From Arthrobacter sp. CDRTa11 (lineage in GTDB: Bacteria > Actinomycetota > Actinomycetes > Actinomycetales > Micrococcaceae): a DNA stretch of 64,000 nucleotides. The notes under the pieces were generated by a model. It saw nothing but the letters and a program-made list of their open reading frames with translations, searched no databases and was not told the origin of the DNA. Shown piece after piece: positions 15,952-22,341 of this stretch; the first letter of the stretch is position 1; every line of letters begins with the position of its first letter. Where the stretch lies: contig NZ_CP044532.1 of assembly GCF_026427775.1 (NCBI RefSeq), positions 372,001 through 436,000 on the forward strand, written 5' to 3'. Position numbers and translations under genes: made by a program.

Positions 15952-16089
15952 AACGACCGGACTTTCTCGTGAATATCCACAGGAACCATTCGGCGCTTTG
16001 ACGCGTTGCCATACCGAGGGTCATACTTTTTACAGGAACATCCTGCTTTTGCCGAAAACCCGAACCCTTTCCAAGAGGAAGACAATTTA

Positions 16090-19576: not shown

Positions 19577-19643
19577 TGTTAAGCTCCCATCCGGTCAAAG
19601 GCTGAGTCCGGTGCGTGGTCGGGGCGCTGCCGTGGTTCTGTCC

Positions 19644-19725
19644 GGTGCCGGCCATCAGAGATTTCCCGGCGCCTGCTCGTTCCTCGCTTTGACGGCGCCT
19701 ACATAAATCCCTGATGCCCGGCACC
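19644..19725 (+). repeat. Structured palindromic element A
   Basis: Outer arms 19644-19664 and 19705-19725 pair at 19 of 21 positions. Inside, GGCGCC (19668-19673) pairs with GGCGCC (19694-19699) and closes a 20-base loop TGCTCGTTCCTCGCTTTGAC (19674-19693). The loop is shared with elements B and C, whereas both stems differ in sequence. Between stems lie CCC on the 5' side and TACAT on the 3' side. Confidence 0.8.
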
Positions 19726-19878
19726 TCGTGCGCGGACTCACCTTGGCTCTATACGCTGGAGCCTGACATGAGCGGCCTTGGCCCGCTTGAGCGGTGCTGC
19801 CCAAAGCCGCTCATGCGGGGCAGAACCGTTCGTGCGGGGGATCTGTTGGCTGGGAAGCGTTCTTGCGCCACAAGCGAG

Positions 19879-19950
19879 GGTGCCGGGGGCATTTGTGTAG
19901 CTTGCGTCAAAGCGACGAAGGAGCAGCAAGCGGCAAATGCCGCCGGTGCC
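19879..19950 (-). repeat. Structured palindromic element B (inverted orientation)
   Basis: On the minus strand the loop reads TGCTCCTTCGTCGCTTTGAC (19925-19906), closed by GCTTGC/GCAAGC (19926-19931 with 19900-19905). The outer arms 19879-19894 and 19935-19950 pair with two G-T wobbles and one mismatch. Spacers on the minus strand are GCC and TACAC, matching the layout of elements A and C. Confidence 0.8.
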
Positions 19951-20043
19951 GGAGCGAACCCAGCCACAGCAACGCACCCGAGCGACACTCGTGCTCGGCG
20001 CGGGGCTTTGTGATGCGGGGCACAGTCGGGTTGAATCGGGTAC

Positions 20044-22182
20044 ATGGCTAACCTGAACCCGGCGATCCCGGGCGAGCAACCTTTGACCCCTTTCCATGAC
20101 CTGGACCATTACCTGGCTATCCCCCGGGTGAGCGGCCTTGCCCTAAGCCCGGACGGGCGGAGGCTGGTCACCACCGTCTCCACCCTCAACGGCAAAGGCA
20201 CCGAATTCGCCACAGCGCTTTGGGAGCTTGACCCCACGGGCGAAAAGCAGGCCCGGCGGATCACCCGCAGCGCCAAAGGAGAGGCCGGGGCCGTCTTCGC
20301 AGCCAACGGCGATGTCTACTTCACCTCGGCCCGGCCGGACCCGGAAAGCCCCGACGGCGATCCCGTCAAGGCCCTGTGGCTGCTCCCGGCAGGCGGCGGC
20401 GAGGCCAGGGTAATTCTCTCCAGGCCGGGCGGAGTGGACAAGGTCCTGTCTGCCCGGGACGCCGACGCGACATTCGTTATTGCCGAGATCCTGGCCGGTT
20501 CCACGGACGAGGACAATGATGCGGAGCGGCGTAAGGCCCGCAAGGACAACAAAGTGGCCGCCATACTGCACAGCGAATATCCGGTGCGTTATTGGGACTC
20601 GGACCTGGGCCCCGGCCAGCCGCGGATCTTCGCCGTCGATGAGGGCCAGGACGAAGAGGCGGGAAAGCCTGCCACGGTGGATGCTGCCCCGCCGCGCGTC
20701 CTTCGCAACCTCACCCCCCACGCAGGGCCCCGGCTGCGGGAAGCGGAAACGGTGGCCAGCCCGGACGGCAGGACCATTTACACGAGCTACACGAGGCCGT
20801 TGGCGAAGGCAGAAAGCCGTTCGGTGCTGGTGGCCGTGGATGTGGCTTCCGGCAACCGGAATGTGCTGCTGGACGAGGAAGGCATGAGCTACTTCCCCGG
20901 CCCGGTCAGTCCGGACGGCAACACGCTGGTTGTGGTCAGCGAAAGCGACACCACCCCGCATCAGGCGCCGCAGGTCAAGCTGAACCTTCTGGATGTTTCC
21001 GGCCGGCTGGATTCACCCGGCCAGACAGGGGGCGCCGCCCGCCTCACCGCGCTGGTTCATGACTGGGACCGCTGGGCAAGGCCCGCCGCCTGGCTCCCGG
21101 ACGGTTCAGCACTGCTGGTCACAGCGGACGACGACGGCGCGTCGCCGGTCTTCCGGATCAGCCTCCCGGCGTCTGCTGCTGAAGTGAGCGTCACGAGGCT
21201 GACGCAGGATGCGGCGGCGTACACCGACGTCGTGGTGTCACCGGAAGGACGCACCGCGTATGCGCTGCGCAGCTCCTACGCCTTCCCGCCGGAAGCCGTT
21301 CGGATCGACCTGGAAACGGGTGAGGCAACGCGCCTTCCGGCGCCGGCCGAACGGCCTGCGGTTCCGGGCCGGCTGGAACGGCTGGCGGCGACGGCGGCCG
21401 ACGGCGCACGGGTGCCTGCCTATCTGGCTCTGCCAGAGGGAGCATCGGCCGATGCGCCTGCGCCGATGCTGCTGTGGATCCACGGCGGCCCGCTGGGATC
21501 CTGGAACGCCTGGACCTGGCGGTGGAACCCGTGGCTGCTCACAGCGAAGGGCTATGCGGTCCTGTTGCCCGACCCCGCGCTGTCCACAGGTTACGGGCAG
21601 TCGTACATCCAGCGCGGCTGGGGGGAATGGGGCAAGGCTCCCTTTACTGACCTGATGGCCGCCACGGACGCCGCTGAGAGGCGCCCCGACATCGATCCGA
21701 CCCGAACCGCGGCCATGGGAGGGTCCTTTGGCGGCTACATGGCCAACTGGGTTGCCGGGCACACTGACCGCTTCAGGGCAGTGGTCACCCATGCCAGCCT
21801 GTGGGCCCTGGACCAGTTCGGGCCCACCACTGACGATTCGCAGTACTGGCTGAGGGAAATGACCGAGGAGATGGCCATTGAGAACTCGCCGCACCGCCAT
21901 GTGGAAAAGATCAGCACGCCCATGCTGGTGATCCACGGGGACAAGGACTACCGGGTGCCCATCGGTGAAGGCCTGCGGCTCTGGTACGAGCTGTTGTCCA
22001 AATCCCAACTGGCCGCCGACCGGGACGGCCAGACTCCGCACCGCTTCCTGTACTTCCCCGACGAGAACCACTGGGTCCTGCAACCGCAGCATGCCAAGGT
22101 TTGGTACGGCGTCGTGGAAAGCTTCCTCGCCAAGCACGTGCTGGACGAGGAGCTCCCGGTACCGGCCGAGCTGGGTCTCTAA
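20044..22182 (+). CDS. S9 family (prolyl oligopeptidase-type) serine peptidase
   Basis: A 712-residue peptidase with an N-terminal beta-propeller (WD40-like PD40 repeats such as ALSPDGRRLVTTVS and SPDGRTIYTSYTR) and a C-terminal alpha/beta-hydrolase domain. The nucleophile is Ser561 in GGSFGGYMANW, with Asp near 633 (IHGDKDYRVP) and His676 (DENHWVL). It has no signal peptide, so it is probably cytoplasmic and acts on short peptides, like acylaminoacyl-peptidase or DPP IV-type members. It is bracketed by the structured elements A/B and C. Confidence 0.92.
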   Translation: MANLNPAIPGEQPLTPFHDLDHYLAIPRVSGLALSPDGRRLVTTVSTLNGKGTEFATALWELDPTGEKQARRITRSAKGEAGAVFAANGDVYFTSARPDPESPDGDPVKALWLLPAGGGEARVILSRPGGVDKVLSARDADATFVIAEILAGSTDEDNDAERRKARKDNKVAAILHSEYPVRYWDSDLGPGQPRIFAVDEGQDEEAGKPATVDAAPPRVLRNLTPHAGPRLREAETVASPDGRTIYTSYTRPLAKAESRSVLVAVDVASGNRNVLLDEEGMSYFPGPVSPDGNTLVVVSESDTTPHQAPQVKLNLLDVSGRLDSPGQTGGAARLTALVHDWDRWARPAAWLPDGSALLVTADDDGASPVFRISLPASAAEVSVTRLTQDAAAYTDVVVSPEGRTAYALRSSYAFPPEAVRIDLETGEATRLPAPAERPAVPGRLERLAATAADGARVPAYLALPEGASADAPAPMLLWIHGGPLGSWNAWTWRWNPWLLTAKGYAVLLPDPALSTGYGQSYIQRGWGEWGKAPFTDLMAATDAAERRPDIDPTRTAAMGGSFGGYMANWVAGHTDRFRAVVTHASLWALDQFGPTTDDSQYWLREMTEEMAIENSPHRHVEKISTPMLVIHGDKDYRVPIGEGLRLWYELLSKSQLAADRDGQTPHRFLYFPDENHWVLQPQHAKVWYGVVESFLAKHVLDEELPVPAELGL

Positions 22183-22192
22183 GCTCCTGCTC

Positions 22193-22264
22193 GGAGGCTG
22201 GGACATTTCCCGCGTGCTGCTGGTTCCTCGCTTTGACGCACGCTACAGGAATGTCCCAGCCTCC
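22193..22264 (+). repeat. Structured palindromic element C
   Basis: Outer arms 22193-22207 and 22250-22264 are a perfect 15-bp stem. Inner GCGTGC (22212-22217) pairs with GCACGC (22238-22243) around the 20-base loop TGCTGGTTCCTCGCTTTGAC (22218-22237). It starts 10 bases after the S9 peptidase stop and could also act as its terminator, but the conserved loop argues for more than that. Confidence 0.8.
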
Positions 22265-22341
22265 TTCGCCTCGTACCGGTATCGGAGCGCTCCAAGCGGC
22301 CCAGTCTTCGAGCCGGACGCTGCGGCCATAGGATTGAACCT

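Follow-up and report, generated by a model that had tools for sequence, protein, structure and literature searches.

REPs are the best-known dispersed hairpins of bacteria, and RAYT transposases account for the way in which they spread. Two other kinds of palindromic sequence invite comparison. Rickettsia palindromic elements (RPE) have entered protein-coding genes without breaking the reading frame and have been retained there. Integron attC sites have conserved stem ends and a varying tip, and their hallmark is a set of R boxes (RYYYAAC/GTTRRRY) together with a cognate integrase.

Three palindromic elements, A, B and C, lie around a peptidase gene in the 64-kb stretch of DNA analysed here (the window), which belongs to a source genome of 5.16 Mb in one contig. 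As with GTAG REPs/REPINs, the element is short, extragenic and found behind genes, forms inverted pairs and follows a single-strand hairpin logic. It differs from them in its size (about 85-130 nt, as judged from filled and empty sites), in its nested stems and conserved tip, and in arms that vary between loci; it also occurs without Y1/RAYT in nearly all genomes tested, with a median of only 7 copies per genus genome. The tag beside the inner stem was GCAG in 29, GTAG in 17, GAAG in 11, AAAG in 10 and another sequence in 2 of the 69 rows of alignment A2. Like an RPE, the element can stand in frame in a gene (an S58 peptidase gene and an E1-E2 ATPase ORF), a likeness of general features; unlike an RPE, most of its copies are intergenic.

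GTAG and CGTC REPs are both described in the part of PMC3733652 used here, where CGTC REPs have a terminal CGTC, stems of 8-9 bp that nearly always start with AT, loops of 4-5 nt and tails that are mostly CCA. The five phyla from which that part lists CGTC repeats do not include Actinobacteria. The element resembles these repeats in having no dedicated transposase, in its intragenic units and in a CGTC-like run (GCGTC) at the base of its tip, but its layout in A2, compared by eye with the same part of PMC3733652, differs, and its CGTC is not terminal. No Rfam family was hit in the window, none at E <= 1 over positions 19600-22300, and none at the gathering threshold in 10 related loci. The letters of the core gave only unrelated matches (primer sets, a synthetic gene) in the open PMC library, and a search by topic of the open literature, with the subscription literature outside its scope, found no account of such an actinobacterial family; PMC12306157 gives figures for one Arthrobacter species and, in the part concerned, does not describe it. 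Because there is no Rfam match, no fit to GTAG or CGTC REPs and no description in the open literature, the family is best read as new within the REP kind.

Elements A, B and C in the window

Element A (positions 19644-19725) has outer arms at 19644-19664 and 19705-19725, an inner stem GGCGCC at 19668-19673 and 19694-19699, and a loop at 19674-19693. Element B (19879-19950) is inverted with respect to A; its arms are at 19879-19895 and 19934-19950, its inner stem at 19900-19905 and 19926-19931, and its loop at 19906-19925. Element C (22193-22264) has arms at 22193-22209 and 22248-22264, an inner stem at 22212-22217 and 22238-22243, and a loop at 22218-22237. The model R1 scored them at 65.7, 73.7 and 65.7 bits, respectively, and found nothing else in the window. 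Between B and C, on the forward strand, lies the gene of an S9 (prolyl oligopeptidase family) peptidase of 712 aa (20044-22182; PF00326, E 9.9e-42), whose stop codon lies 10 nt before element C; this gene was present in 50 of 61 genomes of the genus (E <= 1e-100). An imperfect outer inverted repeat, seen by eye, brackets the A+B pair (left half 19630-19651, right half 19943-19969; compare the relatives L152 and L154), and in L154 only this outer repeat remains of the pair, as a short piece.

The initial annotation had given these coordinates and a common plan of long outer stem, internal loop, 6-bp inner stem and 20-nt loop, and both were confirmed in the sequence. The near-constant loop, with stems that vary in their letters but still pair, was likewise borne out for the three elements. 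The spacers of 3 and 5 bases held only in part: in B and C, pairing is possible for the final base of the 5-base spacer, and by eye the internal loop of these two is 2x4 nt and not 3x5. Folding as DNA compared with shuffled sequences gave z = -5.0 for A, -1.3 for B and -4.5 for C; with a z of only -1.3, B would be unremarkable on its own. The 14-nt core of the loop had three exact matches in the 64 kb. With up to two mismatches there were four, against 0.67 expected, a number reached in 0 of 100 shuffles; the fourth, weak match at 15989 is without such a stem (by eye).

Covariation, tip and folding strand

Alignment A1 comprised 82 gap-free copies over 70 columns (84 listed, two irregular copies dropped) and alignment A2 69 rows (72 listed, three irregular copies dropped). 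The wider covariance model R2 was built from 69 copies, and the copies studied in detail came from the genomes that were listed first or were richest in copies. In A1, 99.7% of the inner-stem and loop cells were paired, and in 79 cells both partners had changed; covariation scored 0.350, compared with 0.058 for shuffled alignments and at most 0.135 for slid versions. The corresponding values in A2 were 99.5%, 83 double-change cells and a score of 0.400 against 0.077 after shuffling. As related sequences are not independent, the number of independent events is lower than the number of cells counted. The commonest inner stems were GCGTGC, GCTTGC, GGCGCC, GCGCGC, GCATGC and GCCTGC, each with a fitting partner, and a single non-Watson-Crick pair occurred in this stem in 2 of the 82 copies. 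The covariation of the stems proposed for A, B and C is thus upheld across many copies.

The loop forms a small hairpin of its own. Of its three proposed pairs, 6/10 is C-G in 61 copies, G-C in 20 and unpaired in 1 (n=82), 3/13 switches from C-G to G-C among divergent copies (in 5 of the 69 rows of A2), and 2/14 is invariant. The length of exactly 20 bases is correct for A, B and C; it is no rule of the family, as loops of 20 to 22 nt occur in related genomes, as do apical inserts of 12-58 nt. A reversed element common to the relatives L147 and L159 has a 57-nt palindromic insert in its tip in L147 and lacks it in L159, and L092 carries an apparent chimera of two element subtypes. In the source genome, five copies with the 20-nt loop were found, and the wider model R2 gave eight matches; one copy with a longer tip lies between glyA-like and sdaA-like genes (names by eye), and another between convergent peptidase M3 (Pfam) and pdxS-like (by eye) genes.

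The initial annotation had placed the structure on the strand that it read, forward for A, hereafter the annotated strand. The structure stands, but the strand that folds, as DNA or RNA, is probably its complement (the reverse strand for A and C, the forward strand for B), as judged from the kinds of mismatch, the apical triloops, the tandem G.A mismatches and folding with RNA parameters. In the outer stems of the annotated strand (37 arm clusters, weighted counts), A.C mismatches outnumbered G.T by 36 to 4.8, C.C outnumbered G.G by 25 to about 6, and C.T outnumbered A.G by 10 to 2.5. Because A.C, C.C and C.T dominate there, the complement has the mismatches that are better tolerated (G.T, G.G and G.A). 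Of 127 short tips, 125 had a G-N-A apical triloop on the complement, each of the four bases occurring at N, and for 116 of 128 copies the complement was the better-folding strand under RNA parameters. In DNA hairpins, GNA triloops and tandem G.A mismatches are motifs of high stability. The tip of the putative folding strand has the sequence GTC(N)AA-GC-GA-S-GNA-S-GA-GC-(G)A, in which the S-S pair closes the GNA triloop above tandem G.A mismatches. A point against this choice of strand is that the inner stems were without such a bias (one A.C and one G.T; slightly more G.T in divergent copies, by eye).

Distribution in the genus, family and class

With R2 at E <= 0.001, all but two of the 101 genus genomes sampled had the element (99 of 101), with 767 matches counted, a median of 7 per genome and a maximum of 34. 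The copies shared the plan and had covarying stems, and the suggestion of a dispersed family has therefore held. Extragenic dispersal and head-to-head pairs (A/B and others), both features of GTAG REPs, were observed. The loop pattern alone was found in 71 of the 101 genomes, and the reversed control gave one match. At least 118 loci carry the same core, and in the 80 of them that were listed the named relatives were Arthrobacter, Pseudarthrobacter, Paenarthrobacter and one Micrococcaceae MAG; the record of the window itself is possibly absent from this list.

At the level of the Micrococcaceae, R1 (E <= 0.01) matched 17 of 197 genomes of the family. In the class, R2 (E <= 0.01) matched 17 of 394 genomes, three of them from the same genus as the window, and its weak matches need care. 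The 14-nt core AGCGASGAASGAGC occurred in 101 of 296 class genomes, in up to 54 copies, against 0-2 per genome for the reversed control; single matches may be due to chance, and some lie in coding DNA or in DNA without a hairpin. The S-S pair was complementary in 25 of 29 class cores that were fetched. The copies of AGCGASGAASGAGC in other actinobacteria resemble the element in having the same tip with S-S covariation, but differ from it in an outer design that varies by genus, and the class-wide copies may or may not be one family by descent.

Tandem arrays with the tip core were seen in other genera of the class, at L331:1500-1680 and L372:400-540 (83-nt and 58-nt spacing). Regular tip-core repeats were also present in L413 and L414 (genome G138), near plasmid-type genes (ParB-like and DUF4192-like, by eye).

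Placement relative to genes

From 142 distinct copies, 32 at the edges of loci and 2 inside ORFs were left out, and 108 were classified. Gene calls for this purpose were codon-bias ORF calls; many gene names were assigned by eye and some were checked by family models. None of the 108 copies lay between divergent genes, compared with 26% of 192 element-free gaps. In codirectional gaps, where split intragenic copies may have been counted, the annotated strand was in the sense of the gene in 49 copies and the other strand in 33; in convergent gaps, taken by the nearer gene, the numbers were 16 and 10. The distance from stop codon to loop was 35-56 nt in 38 of the 65 copies in the annotated sense, and 11 of the 43 copies in the other sense were within 60 nt.

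The neighbouring genes in the genus included gcvT, glyA, sdaA, ald, DUF885, S9 and glgP. In other genera of the class, copies were located in the atpD-atpC and rpsM-rpsK gaps and behind an L31 gene, infB and gcvP. The elements, which the initial annotation described around the S9 peptidase, are not tied to it, and a link to this peptidase was rejected, as copies lie behind many different genes. A regulon of Gly/Ala/Ser genes is a possibility, considered on account of the recurring gcvT, glyA, sdaA, ald and gcvP, but the neighbours in other genera are atp, rps and infB genes. In one locus of another family of the order (L416:1650-2630), two opposed copies flank a secreted metalloprotease-like gene (by eye) behind gcvP; the flanked gene is one of two similar secreted metalloprotease-like genes.

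Some copies are intragenic. In the gene of an S58 peptidase (PF03576), the element was present in a linker in eight loci (L134, L099, L103, L104, L114, L115, L397 and L400) and reversed in two others (L381 and L398). The linker measured 12-23 aa without a recognised element and 24-63 aa with one, in frame, in the 30 of 36 loci that were readable (L377, L378, L380, L385, L399 and L401 were unread by the pattern used). Several of the short linkers look like decayed remnants of the element. A further intragenic copy was located in an E1-E2 ATPase ORF.

These positions bear on two readings of the element as a functional part of the transcript. If it were a structured element of mRNA 3' ends, kept by selection at the RNA level, the hairpin would protect or regulate the upstream mRNA, or its tip would bind a protein or small RNA. 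The tight spacing behind stop codons, the strong covariation, the recurrence behind ald, gcvT, glyA, DUF885 and S9 with differing arms, and a copy that follows gcvP in a different family of the order are all in keeping with this reading, which is nevertheless considered rather unlikely: the mismatch-tolerant strand is antisense to the gene in 65 of 108 copies and sense in 43, both orientations occur, in-frame intragenic copies exist, the copies of other genera adjoin unrelated housekeeping genes, and Rfam gave no match. It is highly improbable that the elements are intrinsic terminators with an odd loop. Copies do lie behind genes and between convergent genes, and T was slightly in excess just after the stem on the annotated strand (a fraction of 0.30 over the 4 nt next to the stem and of 0.18-0.25 beyond them, in 35 arm clusters), but termination requires no conserved tip, and copies are intercistronic in atpD-atpC and rpsM-rpsK, and also lie between gcvT and a gcvH-like gene (by eye). 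The copies inside atpD-atpC and rpsM-rpsK, with the weak T tract, speak against termination as the main role. A simple terminator scan listed none of A, B and C, a weak argument as the scan was limited to loops of 3-8 nt.

Turnover at orthologous sites

The site of element C was readable in 29 of 30 loci, including that of the window, and was variously empty, occupied by one copy in either orientation or occupied by two. In the 25 clpC-S9 gaps that were compared (the window's own included), A+B was present in eight, another inverted pair in two and a single copy in one; in the remaining gaps no element was recognised, and some of them had scars. The A+B pair is thus absent or altered in other relatives. 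Six filled/empty intergenic pairs passed the filter, four of which share one empty locus (L276). Between L087 and L268, 85 nt were present or absent without end repeats, with the left flank identical over 107 nt and the right flank at 176/200, while the ends of the insert in L249 compared with L162 share GGC. In three of the four gcvT filled/empty pairs, as aligned, the element begins directly after the stop codon. The variable occupancy of orthologous sites, the 85-nt pair and the inverted pairs recall REPs or RPE. Precise loss is an alternative reading of the clean pairs of filled and empty sites. The element recurred at orthologous sites across species in or near the S58 peptidase, ald and DUF885 genes, which fits selection for a function as well as mobility.

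Possible means of spread

The REP transposase domain Y1_Tnp (PF01797) was detected in 1 of 101 genomes of the genus and, in the class, in 0 of 16 core-rich against 5 of 16 core-free genomes. As the domain is nearly absent from the genus and from the core-rich genomes, a RAYT is out as the enzyme that usually mobilises the element. In four regions inspected by eye, copies were not seen to flank any transposase-like gene. A phage or plasmid origin was also rejected: viral contigs scanned for two exact cores and phage records compared with B or one related design gave no match, and among plasmid records there was none for two related designs and 2 of 72,556 for C, both from Arthrobacter.

An attC-like site, on whose folded bottom strand a tyrosine recombinase would act, is very improbable. 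The element has in common with attC the apparent folding of the opposite strand, an asymmetric internal loop, a variable apical region and a position behind the stop codon; however, its conserved and variable parts are swapped relative to attC, and the genes of the S9 locus are syntenic chromosomal genes and not cassettes. Mobilisation as a classical REP/REPIN by a RAYT (Y1) transposase is the least credible reading, for although size class, inverted pairs, extragenic position and the GTAG tag of 17 A2 rows agree with it, most rows have GCAG, GAAG or AAAG, and the near-absence of Y1_Tnp contradicts it unless the Y1 enzyme is too diverged for PF01797.

Among the readings offered by the initial annotation, a mobile or REP-like element is the best supported. 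With slightly better than even confidence, A, B and C are taken to be copies of a REP-like, dispersed family of palindromic DNA of actinobacteria that is independent of RAYT, in which A+B resembles an inverted REP pair. The folded single strand would be the substrate of a trans-acting function of the cell other than a Y1/RAYT transposase. Copies would thereby spread only on rare occasions, last for a long time and be eroded by deletions, and would survive mainly just behind a stop codon, where a hairpin may be harmless or mildly useful; in the transcript, a stable hairpin would then mark where the upstream cistron ends. Counting against the REP-like reading, no transposition was observed, a median of seven copies is low for REPs, and the inner stems show no strand bias. 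In addition, neutral spread does not explain the recurring neighbours (gcvT, glyA, sdaA, ald and peptidases), which may reflect descent.

A broader proposal, put forward tentatively and with the balance of probability against it, is that of a class-wide, Y1-independent system of mobile hairpins. Its signal would be the folded tip, with the GNA triloop over tandem G.A mismatches; some enzyme with a preference for positions directly after stop codons would copy or move the hairpins, and each lineage would have its own arms around the same tip. An actinobacterial counterpart of REPs without RAYT and with a constrained tip would make the spread of repeats testable at concrete empty and filled loci. 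The covariance model is also of use to annotators, since these repeats lie inside essential operons and in frame in proteins.

Other repeats associated with the elements

A second palindromic family (core CCTCGCAAGCTCGGCCAGGGAACCCT) was inserted in the tips of elements in L141, L142, L147, L150 and L154, and by eye it also has a GA..GA motif on one strand. Tandem 32-nt repeats GACGCTCTCTCACTTnnCGCnnnGTTTGGGC adjoin some copies, as between gcvT and the gcvH-like gene of the source genome (L125:2152-2262) and in L130 and L009, and are present in L276 without the hairpin; there were 11 matches in the source genome and 0 in genome G091. The 32-nt GACGCTCTCTCAC repeats next to some copies are a separate feature, occurring without the element in L276. 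Another short palindrome with tandem G.A mismatches, GGTTGAGCNNGTCGAAACC, which is frequent in Micrococcales, was present in 10 of 408 loci (L025, L039, L054, L217, L224, L232, L269, L285, L288 and L300).
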